Below are positions 39,036 to 60,752 of a stretch of 63,408 nt of DNA, piece by piece. This DNA comes from an uncultured Prevotella sp. GTDB lineage: Bacteria; Bacteroidota; Bacteroidia; Bacteroidales; Bacteroidaceae. How positions within the stretch are numbered: position 1 is the first letter of the stretch; every line of letters starts with the position of its first letter. The stretch spans positions 1-63,408 of the forward strand of contig ONBG01000014.1 in NCBI GenBank assembly GCA_900316015.1. The letters are read 5' to 3'. The position numbers and the translations under genes are program-made. The notes beneath the pieces are model-generated. The model searched no databases. It was not told the origin of the DNA and worked only from the letters and a program-made list of their open reading frames with translations.

Positions 39036-40280
39036 ATGGAACCAACGACGAACAAGAAAGAACAGATACTAATCAGCATCACAGGCTTAGACCGTCCGGG
39101 ACTTACTGCTTCTGTCATGGAAATCCTGGCTAAATACGATACGCAAATTTTAGATATTGGTCAGGCTGACATCCATAGTACACTGTCGCTCGGAATTCTT
39201 ATCCGAATCGAGGAGCACAACTCTGGACAAGTCATGAAAGAGTTGTTGTTCAAAGCAACAGAGTTAAGCGTCAATATCGGATTTCAACCCGTTTCTGATG
39301 ACAAATACGAAGACTGGGTTAGTCGACAAGGCAAGAACAGATATATTCTCACCATAATTGGACGAACGCTTACCGCCAAGCAAATTGAGGCTGCTACGAA
39401 AGTCATAGCCCAGCAGGGACTAAACATAGACTCCATCTTACGCCTCACCGGTCGCCAGAGCATCCGCAAACCCATCAAGAATGTACGCGCTTGTATCGAG
39501 TTCTCCTTACGTGGAACGCCAAAAGACCGAGCACAACTACAAGAAGAGCTGATGAAAATGGCATCAGACATGGATATCGATTTCTCATTTCAGAAAGACG
39601 ACATGTATCGTCGCATGCGCCGACTGATTTGTTTTGATATGGATTCTACGCTAATACAGACAGAATGTATTGATGAACTGGCAAAACGCGCAGGCGTGGG
39701 TGAGGAAGTAAGTGACATCACTGCCAGTGCCATGCGTGGTGAGATTGACTTTAAGGAAAGCTTTACCCGCCGTGTGGCTTTATTGAAAGGACTTGATGTC
39801 AGCGTCATGAAAGACATCGCAGAGCACTTGCCCATTACAGAAGGTGCTGACCGTCTGATGTCTGTACTGAAGAGATGTGGATATAAAATTGCCATTTTAA
39901 GTGGAGGCTTTACCTATTTTGGGGAATATCTGCAGCACCGCTATGGTATTGACTATGTCTATGCCAACGAACTAGAGATAGATGACAATGGTAAGCTGAC
40001 TGGACATTATGTTGGCGAGATTGTAGATGGTCATAGAAAAGCAGAATTACTGAAGTTAATTGCACAAGTGGAGAAAGTAAACCTGGCACAGACTATAGCT
40101 GTTGGTGATGGGGCCAATGATCTGCCCATGATCAGCGAGGCTGGTCTGGGTATTGCTTTCCATGCCAAGCCCAGGGTTGTAGCCAATGCAAAACAGTCGA
40201 TTAACACACTCGGACTTGACGGCGTTCTCTACTTTCTCGGATTCAAGGATAGCTATTTAGGTGAACAAGGGAAGTTCTAA
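39036..40280 (+). CDS. serB: Phosphoserine phosphatase with N-terminal ACT domains
   Basis: A 414-residue SerB that removes phosphate from phosphoserine in the last step of serine synthesis. Two ACT-type regulatory domains cover about residues 1-190 (ISITGLDRPGLTASVMEILA and the second, ILTIIGRTLTAKQIE). The HAD catalytic motif is FDMDST (Asp201 and Asp203), followed by ILSGGFTYF (motif II/III region) and VGDGANDLPM. The ACT domains probably sense serine. The start at 39036 agrees with homologues beginning shortly before ILISITG; in-frame ATGs at 38952 and upstream exist. A strong terminator follows. Confidence 0.92.
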   Translation: MEPTTNKKEQILISITGLDRPGLTASVMEILAKYDTQILDIGQADIHSTLSLGILIRIEEHNSGQVMKELLFKATELSVNIGFQPVSDDKYEDWVSRQGKNRYILTIIGRTLTAKQIEAATKVIAQQGLNIDSILRLTGRQSIRKPIKNVRACIEFSLRGTPKDRAQLQEELMKMASDMDIDFSFQKDDMYRRMRRLICFDMDSTLIQTECIDELAKRAGVGEEVSDITASAMRGEIDFKESFTRRVALLKGLDVSVMKDIAEHLPITEGADRLMSVLKRCGYKIAILSGGFTYFGEYLQHRYGIDYVYANELEIDDNGKLTGHYVGEIVDGHRKAELLKLIAQVEKVNLAQTIAVGDGANDLPMISEAGLGIAFHAKPRVVANAKQSINTLGLDGVLYFLGFKDSYLGEQGKF

Positions 40281-45985: not shown

Positions 45986-46082
45986 TGTTTTTGAAAGTGC
46001 AAAGGTACTTCAAACAAATGAATTTGAACCCTTTCACATCCACTTTTTCCTATTTAAGAGAACTACTTTCATGAATATTTTA

Positions 46083-46090
46083 TAACTTTG
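46083..46090 (+). promoter_or_regulatory. Promoter -7 element of the LysE-type gene
   Basis: TAACTTTG at 46083-46090, 25 bp before the ATG at 46115; the -33 region is weak. Confidence 0.55.
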
Positions 46091-46114
46091 TTGCAGAAAA
46101 AACAATCAATAAAG

Positions 46115-46705
46115 ATGCCCATTAGACTTATTCCCTCCCTGCTCGCCCTGATCGTCGTATGGGGTTTCACACCTGGTCCAGCAAATATTTACGCCATGGG
46201 CTGCTCCATCCTATATGGACGCCGCCGTACACTAATGATGTGGACTGGCTTACTATGCGGTTTCTCCGTAGCAGCTATTATCGCCGCCATCGTGACCCAT
46301 ATCGTTGGTCCAGCCATGTCACATGGTGTGGCTTACTTGAAATACCTCGGTGGCATCTATATTCTCTGGTTGGCTTTGACCACATTTCGTAACATCCAAA
46401 AAGAGTCTAATGGCGACAACCGCTCATGCACGTTCGCTACGGGTTTCATCGTCCAGTTGACCAATGCCAAGATTATCCTCTTCGACTTCATGGTTTACTC
46501 TGTCTACGTTCTACCCTATTCCTCCCGACTTATCGACCTCTTCTTTGCCGCTGCTCTTCTACTCATCGCCGGGCCTGGAGCCAACTTAGCCTGGCTATTA
46601 GCCGGAGCCACCATGGGCCACTTCTTGAAAAACTATCGTCGGCAAGTCAGTTGGGTAATGGCGGCACTATTGGTTGTATGTGCCGTGATTGTCTTCATAG
46701 GGTAA
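46115..46705 (+). CDS. LysE/RhtB-family exporter
   Basis: A 196-residue inner-membrane protein with about six helices. The N-terminal motif FTPGPANIYAMGCSILYGRR is the hallmark of the LysE/RhtB superfamily, which exports amino acids such as lysine, homoserine or threonine. The substrate cannot be told. The ATG at 46115 is chosen because an upstream frame would start inside the promoter. It stands alone between DUF1304 (divergent) and the GH2 gene, and has no link to the glycan genes that I can see. Confidence 0.82.
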   Translation: MPIRLIPSLLALIVVWGFTPGPANIYAMGCSILYGRRRTLMMWTGLLCGFSVAAIIAAIVTHIVGPAMSHGVAYLKYLGGIYILWLALTTFRNIQKESNGDNRSCTFATGFIVQLTNAKIILFDFMVYSVYVLPYSSRLIDLFFAAALLLIAGPGANLAWLLAGATMGHFLKNYRRQVSWVMAALLVVCAVIVFIG

Positions 46706-46812
46706 ACTGCAATGAGAACACATTCTTTTACATATGAGCATTCAGATGTTTTGACGAATAGTGCCTTCATGCCTCCCAATCATTTTGTCCATCTTTTCTT
46801 TTAGCTTTGTCT

Positions 46813-46844
46813 ATTGTTAAAAGGGATTATTCTCAATAACTTTG
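46813..46844 (+). promoter_or_regulatory. Promoter of the GH2 gene
   Basis: ATTG at 46813-46816, a 20-nt spacer and TAACTTTG at 46837-46844 fit the consensus. Since transcription would start near 46851, the codon at 46842 cannot be the start of the gene. Confidence 0.7.
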
Positions 46845-46868
46845 TGGCGAATATACAACTCTGACTCA

Positions 46869-49667
46869 ATGAAAAGAATCGCATTGACATTATCTTTATG
46901 CTGGTTATTCATCAGTATCCATGCACAGAAATCCATTGACCTGAGTGGTCGTTGGCAATTTCATGAAGGCAGTGAGGAGCTGCCTGCCCAGTTTGATGAC
47001 GCAATCCAATTGCCTGGATCTATGCTCACCAATGGCAAAGGGGATGAAATTTCACTTCAGACTCCTTGGATGATGCAGATCGATGAGCACAATCCTTATT
47101 ACCATGGGACATTCTATGCCAAGTATCGCCAACCTGGGAATATTAAGGTTCCGTTCATCCTGCAACCTGAGAAATACTATGTCGGTCCTGCTTGGTATCA
47201 ACGGATAGTGGAGATCCCCAAGGCATGGAAGGGTCAGATCATCAAACTGAATTTAGAGCGTGCTCATTGGAAGACTGTTGTGTATGTGGATGGCAAGAAC
47301 GCTGGAACGAACAACCGTCTGTGCGCACCCCAAGAATATGATCTTTCTGATTGCCTCACGCCCGGTCGGCATACTTTAAGCATTCTCGTGGATAACAGAA
47401 TCCATGATGTTGATCCCGGGGAGAATGGACATAGCATCAGTGACAACACACAGGGGCTATGGAATGGTATCGTTGGGAATATCAGCCTGAAGGCCTATCC
47501 TCGGGTATGTTTCGACCGAATAGATGTCTATCCTTTGCTGTCAGCCCATACCATCACGGTAAAAATGAATGTGACAAATGCTGGAAAAAAGGTCAAGAAT
47601 GCAGATCTACAGATCGGCGACCAACATTTTCAACAAGTCCTATCTCCTGGAAACAATCATATCGAGAAAACCATTACCATGCCAGAGGGAGTGAAATACT
47701 GGGATGAATTCCATCCAAACCTCTACAAGCTGAGCGTAGCTGTGTCCGTGAAGAAGGAACGGGACGAACGGATGATCAATTATGGCTGTCGTGAATGGGG
47801 GCATCAGGATGGCGCGCTTACCTTGAACGGGCATCCTGTTTTCATGCGCGGAAACGTGGATTGCTGCACGTTCCCCCTCACAGGATATCCCTCTTTTGAC
47901 AAGTCCTATTGGCAACGCGTCTTTAGCGTTTACAAAAACTATGGACTCAACCATGTTAGATTCCATTCTTGGTGCCCACCGGATATAGCCTTCGAGGTAG
48001 CTGACGAGATGGGGATCTATTGCTATGTCGAATGTTCTTCTTGGGCGAACCAGTCGACAACATTAGGGGATGGGAAACCCATCGATGATTTTATCTACCA
48101 AGAATCGGAAGCCATCGTAAAGGCTTATGGTAATCACCCGTCTTTCTGCATGATGTCGTATGGCAACGAACCAGGAGGAGAGAATTGCACGGCTTACCTC
48201 CGCAAGTTCGTTACCTACTGGAAGTCAAAAGACAATCGCAGAATCTACACAACGGCTGCAGGCTGGCCCAATATCGAAGAGAGCGATTGGCTGAGTGACT
48301 CGCACCCACGCATCCAACTTTGGGGTGCAGGATTGAAGAGTATCATTAACTCGCAGGAGCCGTCCACGCGGTACGACTGGTCGAGCTACACTTCGAAGTT
48401 CCGTCAACCTATGATCAGTCATGAGATCGGTCAGTGGTGTGTCTATCCCCGATTTGAGGAAATCAAGAAATATACAGGTGCTTTCAAGGCACATAACTTT
48501 GAGATCTTCCAGGATCGACTCCGCGAGAATCACTTGCTACAGTATGCGGATAGTTTCCTGTTAGCTTCAGGTAAATTGCAGGTGCTTTGCTACAAGGCTG
48601 ATATCGAAGCAGCATTACGGACAAAGAACTTCGGTGGATTCGAGCTACTGGGACTGAATGATTTCCCCGGACAGGGCACTGCCCTGACAGGCGTTGTGGA
48701 TGTATTTTGGGATGACAAAGGTTATGTTACCGGGAAGGAATACCGTCGGTTCTGCAATAGCCTCGTTCCTTTGGCGAGGATGGATAAATTAGTCTTCAAT
48801 AACGACGAGCTTTTCCGTGCAAGTATAGAGATCGCTGATTATCAAGAACCTATCCATGGGGCACAGGTGAGCTGGATGGTGAAAGACCAAGCTGGTAAAC
48901 ACTTGAAGTCAGGTAAATTAGATCCCAAAGACATCAAGATAGGGAATTGCCAGCAGATAGGCAACATTGAATTCCCATTAGACTTTGTGACCACCCCTCA
49001 GCAACTCAATCTTGAGGTCACCATTAATGGCAGAAGCAACGACTGGAATTTCTGGGTGTATCCCCAGCATAAAGTCCAGGCGAGACGGGATATCTTAATC
49101 ACTGACACCCTTGACGCTCAAGCTATCCGAGTATTACATCAAGGGGGAAAGGTGTTGCTGTCATTAGGTCGTGGCAGGGTAAGCAAGGAATACGGCGGAG
49201 ACGTGGTAGTGGGTTTCTCCAGTATTTTCTGGAATACCCTATGGACGAACCATTGTCCACCCCATACCTTGGGTATTCTCTGTGATCCCAATCATCCTGC
49301 ATTCAAGGAGTTTCCGACTACATATCACAGTGATTACCAATGGCAGGATGCGATGAGCCATTCCGATGCGATCCGCTATGACAAGATTTCCAAGGATATC
49401 CGACCGATTGTTCGCATCATCGACGATTGGTTCACGGCTCGCCCCTTGGCAATGGTCTTCGAGGTAAAGGTTGGCAAAGGATCCATAATCGTTTCTGGTG
49501 CAGACTTGATGAATGATCTGGAAAAACGGACATCAGCCCGTCAACTCCGTAAGAGCCTGATAGATTATATGTCGAGTACCAACTTTAAGCCGGCAGTATC
49601 TGTCGAGATAGATACATTACAAAAACTCTTTTTAAACATACAGAATCCGACTAACAAGAAGGATTAA
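46869..49667 (+). CDS. Glycoside hydrolase family 2 enzyme
   Basis: A 932-residue exported GH2 protein (signal peptide ending SIHAQ). The sugar-binding jelly roll (IDLSGRWQFHEGSEELPAQF), the immunoglobulin-like sandwich and the TIM barrel follow in order. The acid/base Glu is Glu434 in MSYGNEPGGEN and the nucleophile is probably Glu519 in MISHEIGQWC. GH2 contains beta-galactosidases, beta-mannosidases and beta-glucuronidases, and the substrate is not clear; the active-site environment HEIGQW is unlike LacZ. The long C-terminal part (about 610-932) forms additional beta domains. It is a single-gene unit that converges with the symporter gene. Confidence 0.88.
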   Translation: MKRIALTLSLCWLFISIHAQKSIDLSGRWQFHEGSEELPAQFDDAIQLPGSMLTNGKGDEISLQTPWMMQIDEHNPYYHGTFYAKYRQPGNIKVPFILQPEKYYVGPAWYQRIVEIPKAWKGQIIKLNLERAHWKTVVYVDGKNAGTNNRLCAPQEYDLSDCLTPGRHTLSILVDNRIHDVDPGENGHSISDNTQGLWNGIVGNISLKAYPRVCFDRIDVYPLLSAHTITVKMNVTNAGKKVKNADLQIGDQHFQQVLSPGNNHIEKTITMPEGVKYWDEFHPNLYKLSVAVSVKKERDERMINYGCREWGHQDGALTLNGHPVFMRGNVDCCTFPLTGYPSFDKSYWQRVFSVYKNYGLNHVRFHSWCPPDIAFEVADEMGIYCYVECSSWANQSTTLGDGKPIDDFIYQESEAIVKAYGNHPSFCMMSYGNEPGGENCTAYLRKFVTYWKSKDNRRIYTTAAGWPNIEESDWLSDSHPRIQLWGAGLKSIINSQEPSTRYDWSSYTSKFRQPMISHEIGQWCVYPRFEEIKKYTGAFKAHNFEIFQDRLRENHLLQYADSFLLASGKLQVLCYKADIEAALRTKNFGGFELLGLNDFPGQGTALTGVVDVFWDDKGYVTGKEYRRFCNSLVPLARMDKLVFNNDELFRASIEIADYQEPIHGAQVSWMVKDQAGKHLKSGKLDPKDIKIGNCQQIGNIEFPLDFVTTPQQLNLEVTINGRSNDWNFWVYPQHKVQARRDILITDTLDAQAIRVLHQGGKVLLSLGRGRVSKEYGGDVVVGFSSIFWNTLWTNHCPPHTLGILCDPNHPAFKEFPTTYHSDYQWQDAMSHSDAIRYDKISKDIRPIVRIIDDWFTARPLAMVFEVKVGKGSIIVSGADLMNDLEKRTSARQLRKSLIDYMSSTNFKPAVSVEIDTLQKLFLNIQNPTNKKD

Positions 49668-49767
49668 ATAATCATCGCAGGCTTCGGTCTGTGGTGATCG
49701 CATTGATGGAAAACAGTATTAAACCATTGGAAACCTTCTATTAGAGAATGATTGACGCTTTTCTCTC

Positions 49768-51018
49768 TTAACGCTTCAGATCTTTGTCTGTCATTGCTGC
49801 CACACAGGAATCCGACCACACATTTTCCGCAGTCTCTACCATGTCGATAATAGTGTAGATCGGTAGGATGACGCCCATGATGCCTACTGGAGCACCCTGT
49901 CCAGTCATCAGCGAGAGTGTAAGGAAGTAGCAGCCCATGGGTACACCGGCATTGCCAATGGCAGAGACCACGGCAATAAGAAGCCACAGCAGCATCATCG
50001 ACAAGGTGAGATGGGTTCCGCCGTTCTGCATCACAAAGAGGGAGGTAACGAGGATGAAAGCAGCGCAACCATTCATGTTAATGGTGGTGCAAATAGGCAA
50101 TACAAAGCGCGAAACCTTTGGGGATACGCCTGCACGCTTTTCCGCTGTATCCATGGTTACGGGCAGTGTGGCTGCCGAGCTCTTGGTGAAGAATGCCATC
50201 AGCACGGCAGGCAGCATACGACTTAAGTGACGTATGGGGTTGATGCCCCGTACCAGGAGGAAGAGCGGAAGAATAACAAAGAACTGCAGGACGTTGCCTC
50301 CTAGGATAACCGCCACATAACGACCTAACGAGTTGGCTACGACCCCTGCCGATACCTGTGCACTGAGCTGCGCAGCAAAGGCAAGGATGCCTAAAGGCAG
50401 GACCCAGATGAGGGCACGAATGAGCATAAAGAGAATGTCTTGCAAGCCTAACAGCAGATTCATCACCGTGTCTCGACGAGGGCTTGCCGGCATCTTCGCC
50501 AGGGCAATACCCACAGCGGCAGCAACAAGCAGTAGCGAGAGCACATTAGCCTCTAAGAAAGGCTGTACGAGGTTGTTGGGTATCACCGAAAGAATATGGT
50601 CATAATAAGTCTCTCCGCCTAATGTCTTGGGGATAGACGCTTGCCCTCCAGCAACCATCTGGGCGGGTAAGTTGCCAGGGCGGATAAGCAGGTAGAGGAT
50701 GAGACCCACGGCTGCGGCGGCGATGGTGGTAAGCAGCGTGTAGGTCACGGCATGACGGAAGATGCGCCCCGTATCCTTCTGTGTACCGATGGAAGCCAAC
50801 GTAGTTGTGATGGCCAACACGATGGTGGGCACAGCGAGGAACTGGAACAGGCGGGTGTAAACAGTGGCGATGAACGTCATCAGTGCGTTGAGCCCCTGCT
50901 GCCCCAACATACCGAGTACAGCACCTACGACAAGGGCTCCAATCCAAAGTACGAGCTGCCGCCGGTTCTTCACTACATTCTGATTGACTTGCGTGTTATC
51001 TTGACTTACTTGATCCAT
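49768..51018 (-). CDS. Dicarboxylate/amino acid:cation symporter
   Basis: A 416-residue DAACS (glutamate/aspartate transporter fold) protein with about eight membrane helices and two re-entrant hairpins. Diagnostic motifs are the serine-rich hairpin FFTKSSAATLPVTMD and the TM7 motif TTINMNGCAAF (equivalent to NMDGT), followed by the hairpin GNAGVPMGCYF. It takes up glutamate, aspartate, C4-dicarboxylates or serine/threonine with Na+ or H+; GVPMG favours amino acids or dicarboxylates but does not decide. No promoter is clear in the 236-bp gap shared with the chelatase operon. Confidence 0.88.
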   Translation of the reverse strand: MDQVSQDNTQVNQNVVKNRRQLVLWIGALVVGAVLGMLGQQGLNALMTFIATVYTRLFQFLAVPTIVLAITTTLASIGTQKDTGRIFRHAVTYTLLTTIAAAAVGLILYLLIRPGNLPAQMVAGGQASIPKTLGGETYYDHILSVIPNNLVQPFLEANVLSLLLVAAAVGIALAKMPASPRRDTVMNLLLGLQDILFMLIRALIWVLPLGILAFAAQLSAQVSAGVVANSLGRYVAVILGGNVLQFFVILPLFLLVRGINPIRHLSRMLPAVLMAFFTKSSAATLPVTMDTAEKRAGVSPKVSRFVLPICTTINMNGCAAFILVTSLFVMQNGGTHLTLSMMLLWLLIAVVSAIGNAGVPMGCYFLTLSLMTGQGAPVGIMGVILPIYTIIDMVETAENVWSDSCVAAMTDKDLKR

Positions 51019-51198
51019 AGAAATCCTTTTTACTATTCTTCTAACGTAGGAGGACTGGGAAATATTTTATAGAGATGTTCTTCTCATTGATCATCGGTCG
51101 ATTTTGTGCAAGAATATCAGCATACAACCCACCACTGTACCCTTTTTCTCACCATTTCTAATGATTTCCCTGCTTTTTTAAAACCCTATTTTTCGGTA

Positions 51199-51229
51199 TT
51201 GTATAGAATGGACCACATCCTTAACTTTG
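51199..51229 (+). promoter_or_regulatory. Promoter of the chelatase-receptor operon
   Basis: TTG at 51199-51201, a 20-nt spacer and TAACTTTG at 51222-51229. The leader to the ATG at 51255 is only about 20 nt, which leaves no space for a cobalamin riboswitch. Confidence 0.72.
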
Positions 51230-51254
51230 CACTTGAATTTTTAACAAGTGGAAT

Positions 51255-52079
51255 ATGAGAAGACTTTTATTATTAATCTGCATGATTCTATCTTTCTCTG
51301 AGGTATCCTTGTCAGAGAATAAGAGAGCGATTTTAATGGTGCATTATGGAACTGCGAATGATACAAGTAGAGCCAGGAACCTCGATGTCTTGAACAAAAA
51401 GGTAGCGGAAGCTTTCCCGGGATATAAGGTCGTAGAGGCTTATTCCTCCAATATGGTGATCGAGGCTCTTGCCAAACGGGGGATTCAAAAGGATCATATC
51501 CGAGAATCGCTACAGAAGTTGCGACAGCAAGGATATACAGATGTGACCATTCAGACTTCCGATCTGCTTGATGGCGTAATGACCGCCTTGATTGACGATG
51601 TCGCAAGAGAAATGCGGTCGGATTTTGACACAATCCGTATTGGGAGACCCCTGCTTTGGGGACTGGATGACTGTAGATGGATCACAAAGGTGCTAACTAC
51701 ACGCATCTCAGCCGGATCCAACGGTATTGTCTTCTTAGTGGGACATGGAACGGAAGGACCAGCCAACGCTATTTATTCTGAACTGGATTATGTATTGCAG
51801 GATATGGGACATAAAAATTATCATGTCGTTACCATTGAAGGATATCCCAATTTTGATAATGCCGTAAAAATCCTAAAAGAAGAGGATCACAAACAGGTCA
51901 CCCTTTACCCACTTCTGATGGTTGCAGGTAATCATGCCGTGAAGGATATCAACGGAAATTGGAGACAAGAACTCACGGAGATGGGATACCAAGTGCAGGT
52001 CATACAGGAAGGCCTTGGCTCCATAAAAGAAGTTCAGGACCATTTGATCTCTCAAATTAGAAAATTAATCAATCAGTAA
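51255..52079 (+). CDS. Exported CbiK-type metal chelatase
   Basis: A 274-residue class II chelatase of the CbiK (sirohydrochlorin cobaltochelatase) family. Unlike cytoplasmic CbiK it starts with a signal peptide (MRRLLLLICMILSFSEVSLS), so it is exported. Metal-ligand residues are retained: His164 in LVGHGTEGPAN, Glu195 in VTIEGYPN and His227 in LMVAGNHAVKDI; the N-terminal motif is RAILMVHYGTANDTSRARN. Periplasmic CbiK proteins are known in Desulfovibrio, where a heme-binding or metal-transport role has been proposed. Here it begins an operon with a TonB-dependent receptor (7 nt) and a PepSY membrane protein. No other cobalamin gene is present. It may insert or remove a metal in a tetrapyrrole taken up by the receptor. 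Confidence 0.85.
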   Translation: MRRLLLLICMILSFSEVSLSENKRAILMVHYGTANDTSRARNLDVLNKKVAEAFPGYKVVEAYSSNMVIEALAKRGIQKDHIRESLQKLRQQGYTDVTIQTSDLLDGVMTALIDDVAREMRSDFDTIRIGRPLLWGLDDCRWITKVLTTRISAGSNGIVFLVGHGTEGPANAIYSELDYVLQDMGHKNYHVVTIEGYPNFDNAVKILKEEDHKQVTLYPLLMVAGNHAVKDINGNWRQELTEMGYQVQVIQEGLGSIKEVQDHLISQIRKLINQ

Positions 52080-52086
52080 GGAAAAC

Positions 52087-54156
52087 ATGAAAAAGAAAGT
52101 TTTAGCTTTGATCCTTCTCCTATGCGGGATTTTCGCGAATGTTTCAGGACAACAAAAGATAAACAAAGACTTAAGCATGACCAATACGGTTCATCAATTG
52201 AACCCAGTCGTCGTAACTGGAAATGGTCATCATGAATACCTAAAATCCTCGACAACTCCGGTCCATGTGATGACATCTCAAGACATCCACCAACAGGGTG
52301 TCAGCACATTCAGTGATGCACTTACCCACTTAATGCCAAATGTAGAGTTTATGCCGAATGCCATGGGATCTTATCTCCGGTTGAACGGCTTGGGTAACAA
52401 GTATGTGCTTATTCTGGTCAATGGAAAGAAATTAGTAGGTGATATCTCCGGCAATGTGGATATAGACAGAATCAACATGGGAGAGGTGAAACGAATAGAA
52501 GTGCTCAATGGTGCTGCCTCTTCTCTTTACGGAAGTGATGCCATCGGAGGCGTGATCAATATAATTACGGATCAGCCGAAGAGCGAACTGGTCAACGTCA
52601 CAGCAAGCTCGCGTTTCTCAGGGAAAGGGCAACAAACGACAAGTGCCAGCTTGAATATCAATTACAAGGGGTTCGGAAGTTATACGAACTTCAAGCATGA
52701 AGAAGCCGACAGCTACCGTAATAACCCATTAGAATATATAAAGGGCAATTCCGGAGACACCCAAGAGAACGTGGACCCGCTCTTCCTCGGATACCATACA
52801 AACGGGATCGGGCAACGTTTCACTTATTCTCCTTTTGCAGCCTTGTCCTTCTATGGGAGTGTCAATTATTCCTATAAGAAGACGGATCGCCCTCTCCCCG
52901 TTGAGGGAAAGGAAGGTGGATATACCTACGACCTGCGTTATAAGTCACTGCGTTTTGACGCCGGTGCGCAATATAAAATAACACCACGCAATTCCCTGCA
53001 ATTTGACTTTACAAGTGACAACTACCGCTACGGCTATGAGTATAACTCTGCCGCGACAGGGAATTATTACAACGGACTCTACGACATGAAGAAGAAACAG
53101 CAATATTATGAGACAGAACTGAAGAGCATCAACCATTTCACGACAAACTCGACAACCACATTCGGTCTTGACTGGCGTAATGATTTCTTGTTGGCAACTG
53201 CCGGAAGCACAGATAATCATGCCTATACGCAATCTGTATATGCTCAGCATGACATGCAAGTAATGCATAACCTACGTGCTACTTTTGGACTGCGTTATGA
53301 CAATCATGAAACGTTCGGAAGTAATTTCTCTCCCAAATTCGCAATGAATTATACTCCAGGCAATTTCAGTTTCCGCTTCAACTATGCCCGCGGCTTCCGT
53401 GCTCCAGGACTGGATGAACTCTACTATCATTATTATAAAGCAAAGATGGGTGGGAAGCCGGTTGTTACCTTCGGCAACAAGGACCTGGATCCGGAGACCA
53501 GCAATTACCTTTCCTTAAGTGCCAGTTACACAACGCAACGTTTCACTTTGACAGTGATGGGGTACTTGAACTTCATCAAGGATATGATCATTAAAGAGAA
53601 TCTTTCCATAGATGATGCTGCCAAAGAAATGCTGAAAAAAGAATTCCCTGATGATATCACCGATGCCACATTTAAAAAGCTTACTTACTATGGTCAATAT
53701 GTGAACAGTGACAAAGGGATTGTCAAGGGCTTAAATATTAATGTAAGCTATCTAATCACGAATGACTTGAACGTTACCGCCAACTATGCGTACACTTATG
53801 CACGCACGAAAACTGGAGGTGTGTGGAAAGTCCTCGACAGAAGTGTGAGAAACTCTGCTACAGCAGCTATCAATTATGGTCATTCATGGGGCGTTTATAC
53901 ATTGAATGCCAACTTGAACGCCCGTTTCCAGAGCTGCACTTACTTTAATGATTATGAGGATGCTCCTGGATATGGCACTGTAAACCTGAACACAACGCAT
54001 ACTTTCAAATTCAACAAGTACCTGACCTTGGAACCCAACCTGGGCATTGAAAACCTTTTTAATAAGGTGGACAAAAGAATAGATACCTCTACCCGCCGTT
54101 ACGCATTTCTCTCACCTGGTAGAGAGTTTGTCGTGGGAATGAAAGTCAAATTCTGA
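52087..54156 (+). CDS. TonB-dependent receptor for a metal complex or tetrapyrrole
   Basis: A 689-residue TonB-dependent outer-membrane receptor. Signal peptide (VSGQQ), TonB box-like NPVVVTGNGH, plug domain (VHVMTSQDIHQQGVSTFSDA, then LVNGKKLVGDISGN and EVLNGAASSLYGSDAIGGVI) and a barrel ending FVVGMKVKF. It has no CarboxypepD_reg domain and no SusD partner, so it is of the siderophore/heme/cobalamin type and not a glycan importer. The barrel motif NYARGFRAPGLDELYYHYYK resembles the FRAP region of heme receptors, although the downstream NPDL-like section reads NKDLDPET; heme, another metallated tetrapyrrole or a metal chelate are possible ligands. It is translationally tied to the genes on either side. 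Confidence 0.85.
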   Translation: MKKKVLALILLLCGIFANVSGQQKINKDLSMTNTVHQLNPVVVTGNGHHEYLKSSTTPVHVMTSQDIHQQGVSTFSDALTHLMPNVEFMPNAMGSYLRLNGLGNKYVLILVNGKKLVGDISGNVDIDRINMGEVKRIEVLNGAASSLYGSDAIGGVINIITDQPKSELVNVTASSRFSGKGQQTTSASLNINYKGFGSYTNFKHEEADSYRNNPLEYIKGNSGDTQENVDPLFLGYHTNGIGQRFTYSPFAALSFYGSVNYSYKKTDRPLPVEGKEGGYTYDLRYKSLRFDAGAQYKITPRNSLQFDFTSDNYRYGYEYNSAATGNYYNGLYDMKKKQQYYETELKSINHFTTNSTTTFGLDWRNDFLLATAGSTDNHAYTQSVYAQHDMQVMHNLRATFGLRYDNHETFGSNFSPKFAMNYTPGNFSFRFNYARGFRAPGLDELYYHYYKAKMGGKPVVTFGNKDLDPETSNYLSLSASYTTQRFTLTVMGYLNFIKDMIIKENLSIDDAAKEMLKKEFPDDITDATFKKLTYYGQYVNSDKGIVKGLNINVSYLITNDLNVTANYAYTYARTKTGGVWKVLDRSVRNSATAAINYGHSWGVYTLNANLNARFQSCTYFNDYEDAPGYGTVNLNTTHTFKFNKYLTLEPNLGIENLFNKVDKRIDTSTRRYAFLSPGREFVVGMKVKF

Positions 54157-55616
54157 TGCAAACGTTCAGCATGAAAAGATGGTTTAGAAAATATCATAAA
54201 TGGGTTGGCTTAGTGCTAACCCCTTTTATCATCCTATTTTGCGTTTCTGGCATCATTCTCAACCATCGCCAGGCTTTTTCATCATACGATATCAGTCGGG
54301 CGTGGATGCCAGAAAATTATGCTTTCCACAATTACAATAATGGGATCATCAGGGGCGTCATCACTACTCATCAAGGCAACATTTTCGCTTATGGGATTGC
54401 AGGGGTCTGGAAGACAGACTCTTGCTTCTCCCATTTCACGGAATATAACCATGGTTTTCCGAAAGGGGTGGACAACCGTAGGATCCTGAATATGACAGAG
54501 ACTGCAGACCATCACCTATGGTGCGTCACACCCTATGCTGTTTACCAAATGGATAACTCTGGGAAATGGCTTCTTGCCTACGAGAGTCACACCGAATTGG
54601 AAGACATGACCACACGTGGTGATTCTTTGCTCATTCTTTCCCGCTCTGAAGTTTTGATTTCTCGCCCTCCATATCAACACTTTATGCCTCATGCGCTCCT
54701 ACCTCCTAACAAGCATTCTGTACGTAAAGTGAATATTCTCTCTATGGTCAGGAAACTGCACAGCGGAGAGCTATTCGGCTTAGGCGGGCGCCTTTTTATG
54801 GATTTGATGGCAGTAGTCATGATCATCTTATGTATAACGGGAATCATCTTTACAGTCTTAAAGTCTTCTATACGCCATTCCTCTCCCCGGCATATAGCGC
54901 GCAAGGCACGGCAAATGAAAGTCGATCTTGCTTGGCATAATCGATTAGGACGATATCTGATCCTTTTCCTTTTATGGATAACTGTCACCGGTATCTGCCT
55001 GAGAGCCCCCATGTCAACGATGCTCAAGAAAGTAAATTTATCGAATCTTTCCTCTGGAGTGATCAGGAATCCCTACCAAGATCAGCTGAGAGGCATCCGG
55101 TGGGATCCTCTTACATCTCAATGGTTGTTGATGACTACTAAAAAGATCTACCACATGAAGGACTTGGACTCTCCCCCTCAGGCGTTTCCCCATCAACCAA
55201 AGATGAGCTCCATGGGAATTACGGTTTTCCAGTGCATGGACCACACTTGGCTAATTGGATCGCTAAGCGGGCTCTATCAGTTCAACACCATGACAGGAGA
55301 AGTCAAGGGTTATCCTCTGCCATCCATTCATCATGCCCAAGTAAGCAAAGGACCGTCTATTGTAGGGTTTTGTCGCCTTCGTCATCATTCTTTTATCTTT
55401 GAGAAACGATCAGGAGTGCATCCCCGTCTCCCCAAGATGCCAGAGACATTGAAAAGACAGCCAATCTCCCTATGGAATGTTGCCGTTGAAATTCATACAG
55501 GAAGAATCTTTGCCGCATTCCTAAAAAAAGCCGTTTCTGGATATGTCCCTGTATGCGGACTTTTGTTGGTCATTCTCCTCATTACCGGATGGAAAGTGGG
55601 CAAAAGGAAAAGGTAA
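54156..55616 (+). CDS. PepSY-associated inner-membrane protein
   Basis: A 486-residue PepSY-TM family protein. The first membrane helix follows WFRKYHKWVGLVLTPFIILF, with HKWVG typical of the family; a periplasmic domain of about 170 residues follows, then helices around LMAVVMIILCITGIIFTVLK and LGRYLILFLLWITVTGICL (with HNRLGRY), another periplasmic region and a final helix near LLLVILLITGWKVG. Members of this family accompany siderophore and heme receptors and some reduce iron in the periplasm. Conserved His residues in the helix starts could bind heme. Its ATG at 54156 overlaps the receptor stop by one base, so translation is coupled. An in-frame ATG at 54171 is an alternative. Confidence 0.82.
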   Translation: MQTFSMKRWFRKYHKWVGLVLTPFIILFCVSGIILNHRQAFSSYDISRAWMPENYAFHNYNNGIIRGVITTHQGNIFAYGIAGVWKTDSCFSHFTEYNHGFPKGVDNRRILNMTETADHHLWCVTPYAVYQMDNSGKWLLAYESHTELEDMTTRGDSLLILSRSEVLISRPPYQHFMPHALLPPNKHSVRKVNILSMVRKLHSGELFGLGGRLFMDLMAVVMIILCITGIIFTVLKSSIRHSSPRHIARKARQMKVDLAWHNRLGRYLILFLLWITVTGICLRAPMSTMLKKVNLSNLSSGVIRNPYQDQLRGIRWDPLTSQWLLMTTKKIYHMKDLDSPPQAFPHQPKMSSMGITVFQCMDHTWLIGSLSGLYQFNTMTGEVKGYPLPSIHHAQVSKGPSIVGFCRLRHHSFIFEKRSGVHPRLPKMPETLKRQPISLWNVAVEIHTGRIFAAFLKKAVSGYVPVCGLLLVILLITGWKVGKRKR

Positions 55617-55802
55617 CTCATGGATGGCATCATCATTAAGCGAATAATGCAGACCTCATCTGGCCAACGATGAATCAGGAACCGTTGAGGATCAATTTGG
55701 AACCTTAGAGATGATGCATGCCTAAAGATGGCTACTACAGCAACCGCGGTAAAGCGTGCTCATATGTAACCCCACTATGAAAATCATATTACGACAATCA
55801 TG

Positions 55803-55832
55803 TTGATAATTGCAAAAAAATGTTTATCTTTG
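55803..55832 (+). promoter_or_regulatory. Promoter of the second ECF sigma gene
   Basis: TTG at 55803-55805, a 19-nt spacer and TATCTTTG at 55825-55832 fit the consensus; the ATG at 55864 is 31 bp downstream. The rest of the 247-bp gap (55617-55863) shows only two GGAACC words 21 bp apart and no gene. Confidence 0.7.
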
Positions 55833-55863
55833 CATTCACCAATGATCTTGAAGTAATATATTT

Positions 55864-56430
55864 ATGGATAAGTTTACAAATAGCACTTTTAAGAAGTTAG
55901 CTCTTGCTGATGGCAACGAGGTAGCTTTTGATGCATTGTTTGTAGAGTACTATCCTAAGGTATTACAGTTTGCAATGCGTTTTTGCCATGATAAGAGCGA
56001 GGCAGAAAACATTGTCCAGGACCTATTTATGGAACTATGGATCAAGCGAGAACGCTTCTCAAAAATTGAGAATCTTGATAACTATTTATTCATTTCTGCT
56101 CGCAATGCGGCGATACGTTGTGTAAAGCAATCACTGATGCATTGTGAGCATGAGTTGGCTACAGACATTCAAGCCAACGATATGTCCGGCGACTTGAAGA
56201 TGTGTTACGACGAACTTTATAATTTTATTTTTCGTGAGATAGACTCAATGCCTGAGCAGCGTCGGCGTGTGTTCATCATGAGCCGTGTTGATGGACTGAG
56301 CAATGCAGACATTGCACAGCGTCTCGGTATTAGCAAGCGTACCGTCGAAACACATATATCAGCTGCTCTTACCCATTTGCGCAAGTTATTGCCATTACTC
56401 TCGATATTAACACTACTTAACTATCGGTAA
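55864..56430 (+). CDS. ECF-type sigma-70 factor of the SusCD locus
   Basis: A 188-residue ECF sigma factor. Region 2 shows in FDALFVEYYPKVLQFAMRF and ENIVQDLFMELWIKRERF, and region 4 in LSNADIAQRLGISKRTVETH. It is followed after 52 nt by FecR, then SusC with an STN domain, then SusD. This is the standard trans-envelope signalling locus of Bacteroidales, in which ligand uptake by SusC releases the sigma factor from FecR and raises expression of the locus. Targets probably include the SusC promoter. Confidence 0.92.
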   Translation: MDKFTNSTFKKLALADGNEVAFDALFVEYYPKVLQFAMRFCHDKSEAENIVQDLFMELWIKRERFSKIENLDNYLFISARNAAIRCVKQSLMHCEHELATDIQANDMSGDLKMCYDELYNFIFREIDSMPEQRRRVFIMSRVDGLSNADIAQRLGISKRTVETHISAALTHLRKLLPLLSILTLLNYR

Positions 56431-56482
56431 CTACGTGTGGTTTATGTCTTTTTTCTCTTTTAAGAGAGAACCATAAACCATT

Positions 56483-57397
56483 ATGCAATCAGATTATACA
56501 AAATATTCAGAATTTACATCTAAAGACGAAGCTTTGCGTCGGTTGTGGAATAAAGAGGTGTCAGACATATCAGAGCAAGAGATATCAGATGCACTTGGAA
56601 TTTTCCGCTCCCGGCGTTATGCTTATAGTCGTGCAAAACGTCGCAAGATGCGTGTACTGAACATCATAAAATATGCGGCGTTACTCCTTGCGCCTATTGT
56701 TACAGCTTTTTTAGTCTGGTACTATTCTGCAGAATATTATGGACAAGAGACGGAGTTGACGCAATATTATGTGCCTACTGGAAGAATGGATAGTCTGATA
56801 TTGTCGGACAACACTTGCGTCAAGCTCGATGCTGGCACGTCAATCATTTATCCAACCCACTTCAGCAGTCACACTCTCAACAGAAATGTATACGTGAATG
56901 GTCGTTGTCATTTTATCGTTAGCAAGGATCCTATGCATCCATTTGTAGTGAATATGTATAATTTGAAGGTGAAGGTTTTAGGTACACACTTCAGTATCGA
57001 ATCATACAATGAGGACGACCAAATCAAGGTAACGCTGGAAGAAGGTCTTGTCGAAGTATTCGACAACAAGCAAGCGATAATGCTCCACCCCAATGAACAG
57101 TTGGTTTACAATCGCAAGGATGGTACCATGCAAAAGGGTCGTATTGACGCATTGGCTTATAACTCATGGGTAGAAGGCAATGTCGATTTTGCCTCGCAAC
57201 CACTCTCTGTAATCATTAAAACCTTGGAACGCAGGTATGGGGTGAAATTCTCCGTAGATAAGAATATTAATCTCAACCGTTGCTACACCATGAACTTCAG
57301 AAAGGGAGAATCGATCGAACGCGTTCTCAAAGTTCTGTCAATGATCTCTGGGAACATACGATATAGTAAGAATGGCAACATGATTCAACTTTATTGA
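56483..57397 (+). CDS. FecR-family anti-sigma factor of the SusCD locus
   Basis: A 304-residue FecR-like protein with a short cytoplasmic N terminus, one membrane helix (about 57-76, IKYAALLLAPIVTAFLVWYY), the FecR domain (LSDNTCVKLDAGTSIIYPTH, then GRCHFIVSKDPMHPFVV) and a C-terminal domain (YNSWVEGNVDFASQPLSVII, then RRYGVKFSV) that would bind the STN domain of the SusC encoded 40 nt downstream. It keeps the preceding sigma factor inactive until signalled. The cognate partner is obvious here, in contrast to the pair near the sulfatases. Confidence 0.9.
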   Translation: MQSDYTKYSEFTSKDEALRRLWNKEVSDISEQEISDALGIFRSRRYAYSRAKRRKMRVLNIIKYAALLLAPIVTAFLVWYYSAEYYGQETELTQYYVPTGRMDSLILSDNTCVKLDAGTSIIYPTHFSSHTLNRNVYVNGRCHFIVSKDPMHPFVVNMYNLKVKVLGTHFSIESYNEDDQIKVTLEEGLVEVFDNKQAIMLHPNEQLVYNRKDGTMQKGRIDALAYNSWVEGNVDFASQPLSVIIKTLERRYGVKFSVDKNINLNRCYTMNFRKGESIERVLKVLSMISGNIRYSKNGNMIQLY

Positions 57398-57437
57398 TAC
57401 TTTATATTCACCATATTTTAAACTAACCCAAACAACA

Positions 57438-60400
57438 ATGAAGAACTTATTAAACAAAAAGACTGTAGCCACACTCACGCTATGCTTGTCGATGTCGGCG
57501 ACAGTGCTCGGACAAAATCAGGTGATTCATCTGCAACAGACTAAGACCTCTGTTTCCTCGATTATCAAGGCAATTCGGAAACAGACCCAGATGTCGGTAG
57601 ACTTTTCACAGAACACCATCAATCTTAACAAAACAGTGAACTTGAAGTCAAAATCGATATCGCTTGGCGAAGCTATGAATCAGATTTTAAGTGGCAACGG
57701 CGACCTATCCTATAAAATTGTCGACCGCCATATCATTATCTTGAAGGGAAATAACACGCAACAAATAAAGAAGGCCCCAGATCGTGGAGCCAAATTTAAA
57801 ATGAATGGTTGTGTGCTTGATCCAAATGGCGACCCGATCATAGGCGCCTCCGTGTTTGAGAAAGGAACCAAGAATGGTACCGTTACAGATATTAATGGCA
57901 ATTATACCTTAATCTCAAACAATGAAAGTCCCACCTTAGAGATCTCTTATATAGGATTTATCACACAACAAGTAAAAGCCCGTAATGGTGTTATCACAAA
58001 TATCACCATGAAGGAGAATGCCCAGAATCTTGAGGAACTTGTAGTTGTCGGATATGGATCACAGAAAAAAGAGAATCTAACAGGATCTGTATCGTCTGTA
58101 TCAAGCAAGGAACTGGAATCACGTCCAATTACATCGGTAAAAGCGGGTATACAAGGACTTGTTCCTGGCTTGCAAGTTACCAATAGTCAGGGACGACCTG
58201 GTGAGGATAACACATCCATGATTGTACGTGGTGTGGGTACTCTTAATAATGCTTCGCCCTATATCCTCATTGATGGTGTTGAAAGTGGCACCATGAGTGC
58301 AATAGACCCTAATGACGTGGAATCAATCTCAGTACTGAAAGACGCAGCCTCTGCTGCCATTTATGGTTCTAAGGCCGCCAATGGAGTCATCTTGATTACC
58401 ACAAAGCGCGGAAAGTCAGGTAAGCCTACAGTCAATTACAATGGTACCGTGGGCTGGCAGGCAGCAACAGGATATGTGAAGCGGATGCATGCTGCAGACG
58501 CTGCAGAATATCTAAACAAGGCATTATTGGCAAGTGGTAAGAGTGCAAGGTTCCTTCCCGAAGACATCGAAAAGTTCCGTGATGGAAGCGATCCGTATGG
58601 ACATCCTGATACTGACTGGCAAGACTTAGCTTATCAAGGCAATGGATTCATGCACCAACACAGTGCTAGCGTGAACGGTGGCAATGACAATGCAAGTTAT
58701 ATGTTGTCAGCAGGGTACCTCAACCAGAATGGCATTATGAAGCATAGCAACCGTGAGCAGTTCAATCTACGCTCAAATGTTGATGTGAAATTATCGAATA
58801 AGTTCTCTGTTCACACAAGTTTGGCTTATATCAATAACAAATATGAAGATCCAACAAACTCATATGTTGGCGGAGGTTCTGATCAGATCATTCGACAAGT
58901 GAATCTTTTTGCGCCGTGGGTTCCCTATAAGAACGAAGATGGGACTTATGGAACACTAGGTGATGGAAACCCTATCGCATGGATCGACCTTGACCAGACC
59001 ATCAAACGTCGTCATCAGAACTTTACGGGTATACTGTCCATTGATTACCAGATACTGAAACAACTGAAGTTTACAGCGAAGGGAGCTTATATTTCCCAAT
59101 GGGAGTCAACCGATGACTTTATGAAGGATATACAATACAATCCAAGCAAATATCACGGACCCAACTCACTCAACTCCCGTCGGTACTCGTGGAACCGCCC
59201 GTCACTCGACCTCCTTCTTAATTATAACCAGAGTTTTGGTAAGCACAATCTCAAAGGATTAGCAGGTTACCATCTCGAGAAATTCAATTATGATGAGCTA
59301 CGTGCATATCGCAACAGCTTCCCCAATAACGAACTCACCGACATGAACGCTGGAACATCATCGTCACAGACGAACTCGGGATATACACGTGAATTGGCAA
59401 TGATGTCGTATTTTGGGCGCATGAATTACGACTATGCAGGACGCTATCTGTTTGAGGCTAACTTCCGTGCTGACGCATCTTCACGCTTTGCCCCTGGTAA
59501 TCATTGGGGATATTATCCATCGTTCTCCGCTGGATGGCGTATCAGTGAGGAAAACTTTATGGAATCGTCGCGCTCTTGGTTGCAAAATCTCAAGCTACGC
59601 GCATCATGGGGAGAACTTGGCAATCAGGATGCTCTCAGCGACTATTATCCATGGCTTGCTACATACAATGTCGGCATAAACTACCCATTTGGTGGACAGT
59701 TAGAATCTGGTGTCGCACAGACCTCACAGAAGCTCTCTACCATCTCTTGGGAGAAGACGACGACATGGGGAATTGGACTTGACGTAATGCTCTTTAACTA
59801 CATTGATTTTACAATTGATTACTACAACCGTAAGACCACTGGTATTATCATGTCTGTACCCGTTCCTGGGTCTTATGGGCTTAGTGCTTACAAGGACAAT
59901 GTCGGTGCCATGCGCAACAGTGGCATAGAAATATCTCTCGGTTTCCATAAACGTTGGGGCGATTGGGGTATCCATGCTACTGGCAACTTTGCCTACAACA
60001 AAAATAAGGTACTCAACTTAGGAGGTGTTACAGAACAAATCGATTCTTACCTGATCAACCGCGTAGGCGAACCTTACCTGTCATTCTATGGATATGTATG
60101 TGATGGAATGTTCCGTACTCAGGAAGAGGCCGATGCCTATACCAAGGAATATGGAAACCCATTTGGGACATCAAAGATTTTTAAGGCAGGCGACCTTCGT
60201 TATAAGGACGTGGACGGCGATGGCAAACTAACTTCCAAAGACCGTACGACAATTGGCACATCACAACCGAAGTTTACATATGGCTTTAATCTGGCTCCAT
60301 CTTGGAAGAATCTCGACATATCAATGCTCTTGCAAGGCGCACTGGGAGTGTATCGTTACTTCAATGGTGAAGTTTACGGCGATTTTACTGGCGACACCAT

Positions 60401-60752
60401 GCATCCATGCACGGCTTGGTTTGATGCCTTTGATGCCGAAACGAATCCTAATGGCAAGTTCCCACGCATTGCCGAAACAAGCAAGACAGCCAGCTATCCT
60501 AATACTGTGTCTTCCTATTGGGTAAAGCGTACGAATTATTTGCGTTTAAAGAACATCCAAGTGGGATACACCCTCCCCAAGCAGTGGCTCTCACATTTTG
60601 GTATCTCGAACCTGCGCGTATTCTATTCAGGTGAAAACCTCTTTAAGGTAGACAACCTTCCCATAAACATTGATCCAGAGTCGCCATCAGGACGTGGCTC
60701 ACACTATCCTCAAGTTAGCACTCATTCATTCGGTATTAATTTAACATTCTAA
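57438..60752 (+). CDS. SusC-like receptor with STN signalling domain
   Basis: An 1104-residue SusC-family TonB-dependent receptor. After the signal peptide (SATVLGQ) comes an STN domain (about 27-105, SVSSIIKAIRKQTQMSVDFS to IVDRHIIILKG), then a CarboxypepD_reg-like domain (FKMNGCVLDPNGDPIIGASV), the TonB-box-like LEELVVVGYGSQ, the plug (ILIDGVESGTMSAIDPNDVE) and the barrel ending FGINLTF. The STN domain allows it to signal through FecR. It partners the SusD encoded 12 nt downstream. The glycan is unknown; STN-type receptors in this phylum are often linked to host glycans such as mucin and N-glycans. Confidence 0.93.
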   Translation: MKNLLNKKTVATLTLCLSMSATVLGQNQVIHLQQTKTSVSSIIKAIRKQTQMSVDFSQNTINLNKTVNLKSKSISLGEAMNQILSGNGDLSYKIVDRHIIILKGNNTQQIKKAPDRGAKFKMNGCVLDPNGDPIIGASVFEKGTKNGTVTDINGNYTLISNNESPTLEISYIGFITQQVKARNGVITNITMKENAQNLEELVVVGYGSQKKENLTGSVSSVSSKELESRPITSVKAGIQGLVPGLQVTNSQGRPGEDNTSMIVRGVGTLNNASPYILIDGVESGTMSAIDPNDVESISVLKDAASAAIYGSKAANGVILITTKRGKSGKPTVNYNGTVGWQAATGYVKRMHAADAAEYLNKALLASGKSARFLPEDIEKFRDGSDPYGHPDTDWQDLAYQGNGFMHQHSASVNGGNDNASYMLSAGYLNQNGIMKHSNREQFNLRSNVDVKLSNKFSVHTSLAYINNKYEDPTNSYVGGGSDQIIRQVNLFAPWVPYKNEDGTYGTLGDGNPIAWIDLDQTIKRRHQNFTGILSIDYQILKQLKFTAKGAYISQWESTDDFMKDIQYNPSKYHGPNSLNSRRYSWNRPSLDLLLNYNQSFGKHNLKGLAGYHLEKFNYDELRAYRNSFPNNELTDMNAGTSSSQTNSGYTRELAMMSYFGRMNYDYAGRYLFEANFRADASSRFAPGNHWGYYPSFSAGWRISEENFMESSRSWLQNLKLRASWGELGNQDALSDYYPWLATYNVGINYPFGGQLESGVAQTSQKLSTISWEKTTTWGIGLDVMLFNYIDFTIDYYNRKTTGIIMSVPVPGSYGLSAYKDNVGAMRNSGIEISLGFHKRWGDWGIHATGNFAYNKNKVLNLGGVTEQIDSYLINRVGEPYLSFYGYVCDGMFRTQEEADAYTKEYGNPFGTSKIFKAGDLRYKDVDGDGKLTSKDRTTIGTSQPKFTYGFNLAPSWKNLDISMLLQGALGVYRYFNGEVYGDFTGDTMHPCTAWFDAFDAETNPNGKFPRIAETSKTASYPNTVSSYWVKRTNYLRLKNIQVGYTLPKQWLSHFGISNLRVFYSGENLFKVDNLPINIDPESPSGRGSHYPQVSTHSFGINLTF

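Follow-up and report, generated by a model that had tools for sequence, protein, structure and literature searches.

The 63,408-nucleotide (nt) window analyzed here, contig ONBG01000014.1 of an uncultured Prevotella sp. (assembly GCA_900316015.1), carries a compact operon of three genes encoding a predicted exported CbiK-type chelatase, a TonB-dependent receptor, and a PepSY_TM inner-membrane protein. We consider there to be about an even chance that this trio is a chimeric operon for heme (iron-porphyrin) acquisition outside the cytoplasm, resembling IhtB/FetB of Porphyromonas gingivalis. The comparative basis for this reading is the gene content, the export-type leader of the chelatase, the lost B12 context, His448 of the receptor, Met109 and Tyr31 of the chelatase, and the kinship of the PepSY protein; from these we infer which ligand is bound, in which direction the chelatase works, and that electrons are transferred. 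A B12-type module seems to be the origin of the chelatase and receptor, and the heme/iron side that of the PepSY protein; the changed residues (His448 in the receptor, Met109 and Tyr31 in the chelatase) suggest an iron porphyrin.

In the proposed mechanism, the receptor would carry heme over the outer membrane, and the CbiK-like protein would hold it in the periplasm between the C-lobe residues His164, Glu195, and His227 and an altered N-lobe face (Tyr31 and Met109). This protein would then free the iron by reverse chelation or pass the heme on. Electrons from the PepSY protein, which is probably a membrane reductase with two hemes, would let the iron leave as Fe(II). The original prediction had proposed import of a metallated tetrapyrrole with insertion or removal of the metal outside the cytoplasm. 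The exported chelatase and probable tetrapyrrole uptake remain from that proposal, and metal insertion is the less likely direction at the trio. We hold only tentatively a more specific version, in which a cobaltochelatase of the B12 pathway turned into an extracytoplasmic iron-porphyrin de-chelatase: replacement of the N-lobe Phe and Glu by Tyr and Met would give possible iron ligands on both heme faces, and the enzyme would have been joined by a B12-type receptor with a gained heme-receptor His and by a heme-locus reductase.

All features described below lie on the forward strand. The open reading frames (ORFs) confirmed the predicted tight packing: the chelatase gene (51255–52079, 274 amino acids) is separated by 7 nt from the receptor gene (52087–54156, 689 amino acids), which overlaps the PepSY_TM gene (54156–55616, 486 amino acids) by 1 nt (TGATG). 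The predicted families were matched by Pfam, with PF06180 (CbiK) for the chelatase (E 1.4e-61, 208.6 bits against a curated cut-off of 26.2), TonB_dep_Rec (E 1.4e-41) and Plug (E 2.5e-22) for the receptor, and PF03929 (PepSY_TM) for the third protein (E 3.5e-21, 76.7 bits against 28.8). According to the ORF list and Pfam, the operon consists of these three genes only; in agreement with the original prediction it has no SusD-like gene, and it has no DUF4374-type lipoprotein partner.

The chelatase scored 150.7 bits against NF047852, the equivalog model of sirohydrochlorin cobaltochelatase, which is under its 400-bit cut-off. It also departs from that model's description of a cytoplasmic enzyme of corrin synthesis, since it begins with a signal-peptide-like leader and the only tetrapyrrole methylases of its genome are SUMT and RsmI. 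The leader spans approximately residues 1–20 (51255–51314); the N-terminus, MRRLLLLICMILSFSEVSLS-EN, has a Kyte-Doolittle 11-mer mean of 3.13, extends 21 residues beyond that of Salmonella CbiK (StCbiK) in the alignment, and lacks a lipobox Cys where the leader (MRRLLLLICMILSFSEVSLSEN) ends. By this crude hydropathy measure, scored on the full-length CbiK rows alone, all 46 rows, including the window, contained a hydrophobic stretch of 2.0–3.3 within the first 60 residues. The leader in every row and the restricted set of methylases led us to reject a cytoplasmic biosynthetic CbiK. As predicted, the metal ligands are kept behind the leader: His164 (51744–51746) and His227 (51933–51935) align with StCbiK His145 and His207, and Glu195 (51837–51839) aligns with the conserved Glu. 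Among solved structures, the closest relative by sequence was FetB (9b86, E 1.6e-28), which was deposited as a heme-binding protein, followed by StCbiK and Desulfovibrio CbiKP. We regard 9b86 as P. gingivalis IhtB because a stretch of FetB overlaps the IhtB leader quoted in PMC10913741.

The N-lobe differs from that of the characterized enzyme. In StCbiK, Phe10 is described as adjoining the metal, and His145 and His207 as catalytic (PMC4063343, PMC7689651). The window has Tyr31 (51345–51347) at the Phe10 position beside the tetrapyrrole metal and Met109 (51579–51581) at the Glu89 position. Residues were compared in a first set of 39 rows and an enlarged set of 51, in which L072 and L075 are represented only by tblastn segments of their CbiK (L053, L056), stripped of gaps. 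Four of the 51 rows have lost the metal site (L048, L050, L051, and L087, the last also a long branch), and these were excluded from the second chelatase tree and from the following count of Glu. Met occupied the Glu89 position in three rows (the window, L031, and L106), and Glu occupied it in all 44 other site-intact rows. The chelatases of the same three loci formed a clade in the second tree (100/99), and in the first tree they grouped with L087 as four rows (99/98). A constraint joining the chelatase of L136 to the trio as one clade was not rejected (p-AU 0.089), and this grouping is a candidate one. Two further candidates for lineage-specific changes were discarded: Tyr at the Phe10 position occurs in the window, L031, and L106 and also in L136, L056, and L087, and the His of the QSLH motif (Asp103 in the window) is kept by only 5 of the 51 rows (FetB, StCbiK, Desulfovibrio vulgaris CbiKP (DvCbiKP), L085, and L086).

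Tyr and Met are both known as heme-iron ligands. HmuS is reported to hold heme iron through Met and His (PMC12583661). Pseudo-symmetry between the lobes would make Phe10 the N-lobe counterpart of His145 and Glu89 that of His207. A weak hhalign alignment of the two lobes (E 0.008, probability 2%) placed Phe10 against His145 and left a gap at Glu89 and His207, so the second pairing relies on a G-D-E/G-D-H motif read by eye.

The receptor shows a corresponding feature. Heme receptors are described as carrying a conserved His in the FRAP/NPNL loop (PMC3832793), and His448 of the window's receptor (53428–53430) lies in its FRAP-NPxL loop, in the same column as the His of hmu-like receptors. His was present at this position in all four trio-lineage receptors, the single L136 receptor, and all three hmu-like receptors. 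It was lacking in 15 of 15 receptors from B12-type loci (a grouping of our own), 13 of 13 others, and both HmuY-locus receptors, whose own His lies three positions further on. A tree of 38 receptors, selected for their similarity to that of the window, placed the four trio-lineage receptors in one group (100/100), nested among those of B12-type loci.

The PepSY protein points to the heme side. Its five His residues (His14, His37, His202, His261, and His447) are invariant in 14 PepSY rows, including the window, a pattern in line with FoxB, which is described as a two-heme reductase (PMC13038864). This supports the earlier suggestion that PepSY supplies reduction, as the protein is likely a reductase. 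A PepSY search at 1e-20 matched 44 of 389 genomes. Besides L088, 12 of these PepSY loci were read, in wider stretches: three hmu-like (L103, L104, and L108, whose PepSY proteins belong to the window's clade), two HmuY-type, one DUF4876-type, two of the trio lineage, and four with no adjacent receptor gene. Pfam confirmed one locus of each kind (CobN-type/HmuS-like L104, HmuY L110, and DUF4876 L107), the others being assigned by likeness, and no cobalamin riboswitch was found in L103 or L104. The PepSY tree separated 14 rows (window lineage, three hmu-like, two HmuY-type, one DUF4876-type, and four receptorless) from 21 CbiK-locus rows (100/100), a split that is partly due to selection because the two sets were gathered differently. 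Loci with corrin genes or a riboswitch contributed 14 of the 21 rows, and no PepSY of a B12-type locus fell on the window's side.

The B12 context of CbiK was surveyed across Bacteroidales. In the family, 56 of 151 genomes contained PF06180; in the genus, the chelatase protein found matches in 47 of 150 genomes, strong ones in its own and 16 others (the 16 at 33–46% identity) and weak ones, mostly to longer proteins, in the rest. Besides the window, we read 47 CbiK loci (L031–L051, L072–L087, and L127–L136), of which L031 and L136 belong to the window's receptor lineage. Genes in the loci were labeled by BLAST against reference ORFs whose names we assigned by eye, or by inspecting the sequence, and some of these labels were confirmed by Pfam or NCBIfam. 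Corrin-synthesis genes lay in the stretch at 22 of the 47 loci (16 of 37 plus 6 of 10, the latter ten covered for near neighbors). Nineteen loci were scanned for riboswitches; a cobalamin riboswitch was found in seven of nine (absent from L031 and L037) and nine of nine and was absent from L136, which amounts to 16 of the 17 scanned loci outside the window's lineage. Corrin genes (22) or, failing those, the riboswitch (8) thus marked 30 of the 47 loci. A riboswitch in the stretch does not always imply control, since the CbiK gene of L086 is divergent from the riboswitch-led genes.

At the trio, an Rfam scan of window positions 40000–63408 gave no matches, hence no cobalamin riboswitch, and none was found in the scanned stretches of five related loci (L031, L106, L102, L136, and L088). 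The riboswitch has been used to separate cobalamin-type hmu-like operons from heme ones, as reported in PMC10100974. The original prediction had noted that no cobalamin gene lies near the trio and called for a survey of CbiK neighborhoods; as a family norm this absence does not hold, given corrin genes or a riboswitch at 30 of 47 loci. Judged from these neighborhoods, Bacteroidales commonly encode a putatively exported CbiK close to B12-type genes, and the trio is an exception; in the portions of the literature consulted, we found no publication stating that this association is common. The chelatase and receptor therefore appear to be descended from a B12-type module, with the trio as a breakaway.

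The genome itself fits an organism that takes up heme. Its assembly is 97% complete and contains one CbiK and two TP_methylases, SUMT and RsmI. No match was found in it for ferrochelatase (HemH; the control matched 8 of 14 genomes), CobN/HmuS (PF02514; 5 of 14), ALAD (11 of 14), or HmuY, for which the control likewise matched nowhere. The methylase, ALAD, HemH, and CobN results give no sign of a biosynthetic role, in agreement with the earlier argument. CydA (cytochrome bd) is present and, with no ALAD or HemH match, the organism therefore probably needs intact heme from outside. The sole cobalamin riboswitch of the genome precedes genes for a receptor (best model TonB-B12, below cut-off), a DUF5074 protein, and a Peripla_BP_2 protein, and this putative B12-type uptake locus is separate from the trio. 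A further contig (G000:C66; L139:5773–9303) carries a sulfite-reductase-like gene, a precorrin-2 dehydrogenase-like protein, and SUMT; these siroheme-type genes, which depend on a supply of uroporphyrinogen III, occur in a genome without an ALAD match.

Relatives of the operon keep it whole or in part. L106, of the same genus, retains the order chelatase-receptor-PepSY with identities of 42, 56, and 37%, and L136, of another family, has a receptor (43%) and a chelatase (33%). A lineage-profile search at 1e-45 matched 12 of 393 genomes of the order, including its own; Met109 was absent from the other 11 and from the 16 strong same-genus matches. The Met109 lineage was found in three genomes (G000, G003, and G511) and thus looks rare in these samples.

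Several observations weigh against heme acquisition, foremost the incomplete loci, the B. fragilis cbiK result, and the missing Fur control of IhtB. L031, although the closest relative (chelatase 58%, receptor 78%), lacks the PepSY gene, and its genome (G003) gave no PepSY match at 1e-20; L102 has the receptor (71%) and PepSY (45%) with no chelatase alongside; and L088 has decayed chelatase remnants followed by PepSY (39%). Since each of these loci misses or has decayed one part, no part of the trio is indispensable everywhere. Separation of the genes in related genomes, which the original prediction had named as a refutation, is thus seen in these incomplete loci, while L106 keeps the trio. 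Of the 12 PepSY loci, 4 had no neighboring receptor gene. Between the window and L031, identity is lower for the chelatase (58%) than for the receptor (78%), a difference that could reflect relaxed constraint and not a new function. The receptor scored highest with Cir, a catecholate receptor, in the PDB (best matches Cir and PirA) and with the B12 model TIGR01779 (BtuB/TonB-B12) in NCBIfam (142.2 bits against a cut-off of 599.7); heme receptors ranked lower (TIGR01785, 127.8 bits against 316.85), and no model exceeded its cut-off. Best alignment with a receptor of unrelated ligand had likewise been named as a refutation; the Cir and B12-model ranking goes part of the way, and the loop His448 points to heme instead. 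From the literature, disruption of B. fragilis cbiK is said to have left heme-iron use unaffected (unpublished data quoted in PMC6460266), and IhtB of P. gingivalis is reported not to be regulated by PgFur, with transcript changes under iron or heme starvation that were not significant (PMC10913741).

Within the heme reading, it is possible, though rather doubtful, that the chelatase-like protein is a non-enzymatic periplasmic carrier or buffer that passes intact heme inward for cytochromes. The probable need for intact heme (no ALAD or HemH match, and CydA present), the replacement of the N-lobe Glu by Met, which may weaken catalysis, and the heme-binding annotation of 9b86 are consistent with this role. 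On the other hand, all three lineage members keep the His/Glu/His ligands, which a mere carrier would perhaps not need, and no ATP-binding cassette (ABC) transporter gene was recognized by eye beside the operon (window 46000–60000).

It is unlikely that the operon kept a B12-type job, importing a cobalt-containing or metal-free corrin precursor to which the exported chelatase adds, or from which it removes, cobalt. The chelatase and receptor do group with families of B12-type loci, and TonB-B12 is the best, far sub-threshold NCBIfam model of the receptor. However, the methylases are only SUMT and RsmI, the riboswitch is absent at the trio and related loci, a separate riboswitch-linked TonB-B12-like locus exists in the genome, and the trio's receptor carries a loop His that is missing from those of B12-type loci.

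It is very unlikely that the trio takes up a non-porphyrin metal complex (a xenosiderophore or a different chelate), in which case PepSY would be the reductase and the chelatase would assist by binding metal. The characterized PepSY_TM proteins, those of known activity, are described as ferrisiderophore reductases (PMC13038864), and the PDB matches of the receptor to Cir and PirA would suit this view, but a tetrapyrrole chelatase would be an odd siderophore partner. The xenosiderophore operon BT2063–2065, which we take to be XusABC, has a DUF4374 protein and no chelatase, whereas the trio has no lipoprotein gene. The likeness lies in the TonB receptor and PepSY, which BT2063–2065 also combines in one locus according to PMC10434189. 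Salvage of a metal-free tetrapyrrole precursor for siroheme, which the SUMT, precorrin-2 dehydrogenase-like, and sulfite-reductase-like genes at C66 and the lack of an ALAD match might favor, is highly improbable, because ALAD could be absent by chance from a 97% complete assembly, SUMT acts on uroporphyrinogen III, upstream of any CbiK substrate, and His448 of the receptor suggests an iron porphyrin.

We thus favor heme-iron acquisition, and the closest known parallel is P. gingivalis. The CbiK-like IhtB has been proposed to remove iron from heme (PMC10913741 and PMC6460266; since 2000, as quoted in PMC6460266). Like IhtABCDE/FetB, the window pairs an exported CbiK-family protein with a TonB receptor, and 9b86 is the closest solved structure by sequence. 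Unlike the window's protein, IhtB is described as a lipoprotein encoded with the ABC transporter IhtCDE (PMC10913741), and it keeps the N-lobe Phe and Glu; the window's chelatase lacks a lipobox and a recognized ABC partner, has a PepSY partner together with Tyr31 and Met109, and is 28% identical to IhtB over 239 columns. The Hmu system (HmuYRSTUV, with the de-chelatase HmuS) shares the loop-His TonB receptor, a PepSY protein of the same clade in hmu-like loci, and the proposed chemistry. In contrast to the window's CbiK, HmuS is described as a class I, CobN-like chelatase (PMC12583661, PMC13227078), and the window's genome has no CobN match. DvCbiKP, described as periplasmic (PMC4063343), and the exported Bacteroidales CbiKs share the CbiK fold and C-lobe ligands, with the export leader in the Bacteroidales rows; in DvCbiKP, unlike in the window's chelatase, Phe, Glu, and the QSLH His are retained, and unlike the trio, the Bacteroidales homologs mostly sit with riboswitches or corrin genes.

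The survey also yielded observations on other CbiK proteins. Many Bacteroidales CbiKs near riboswitches or corrin genes have an export-type leader (L032–L051, L072–L087, and L127–L135). In some genomes (G027, G077, G109, and G032), the exported CbiK is the sole PF06180 match, CbiX not having been searched for, and cobalt insertion or precursor salvage may occur outside the cytoplasm in such genomes. Exported CbiK-like proteins that have lost the metal-site His lie beside FecE-type ATPase genes (L048:7589–8494, L050:10617–11525, and L051:7673–8611) and are likely non-enzymatic binders. A second, longer (approximately 330–380 amino acids) lipoprotein-like CbiK family adjoins other TonB receptors (L045:2087–3196 and L049). 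Seven loci of the genus (L073, L074, and L078–L082) combine a receptor, a lipoprotein, an exported CbiK, and a protein of 1174–1290 amino acids that is CobN-type (by Pfam in L073, by likeness in the others), so both chelatase classes occur together; a riboswitch was found in L074, L078, L080, and L081, those that were scanned.

Around the trio, Pfam identified genes for an SDF symporter and an extracytoplasmic function (ECF) sigma factor as its flanks. Directly downstream (55864–60752), the ECF sigma factor gene is followed by FecR-like and SusC-like genes, recognized by eye, which form a separate unit. The glycoside hydrolase family 2 protein encoded at 46842–49667 has exo-beta-1,4-galactosidase BT4151 as its best NCBIfam model (1111.7 bits against a cut-off of 1500). 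A single promoter driving the trio is plausible: TAACTTTG (51222–51229), 25 nt upstream of the chelatase start, is a candidate match to TANNTTTG, which we take to be the consensus of the Bacteroidota -7 box. This box is weak by itself, since TANNTTTG has 71 matches on the two strands of the window together.

Oxygen-free release of iron from heme by anaerobic gut bacteria is only partly solved, with HmuS presented as the demonstrated route (PMC12583661). PMC13227078 cites work on IhtB from 2025, and the question of IhtB may have advanced. Because searches of the genome for CobN/HmuS, ferrochelatase, ALAD, and corrin-ring methylases gave no match, its single exported chelatase could be put to a clean test. 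The lineage offers residues (Tyr31, Met109, and His448 of the receptor) that would predict heme versus B12 function, and it suggests a way in which a B12 module could be adapted to a different metal-tetrapyrrole. If the de-chelatase version is true, the trio would add a third anaerobic way of reaching heme iron to the HmuS and Chu-type routes.

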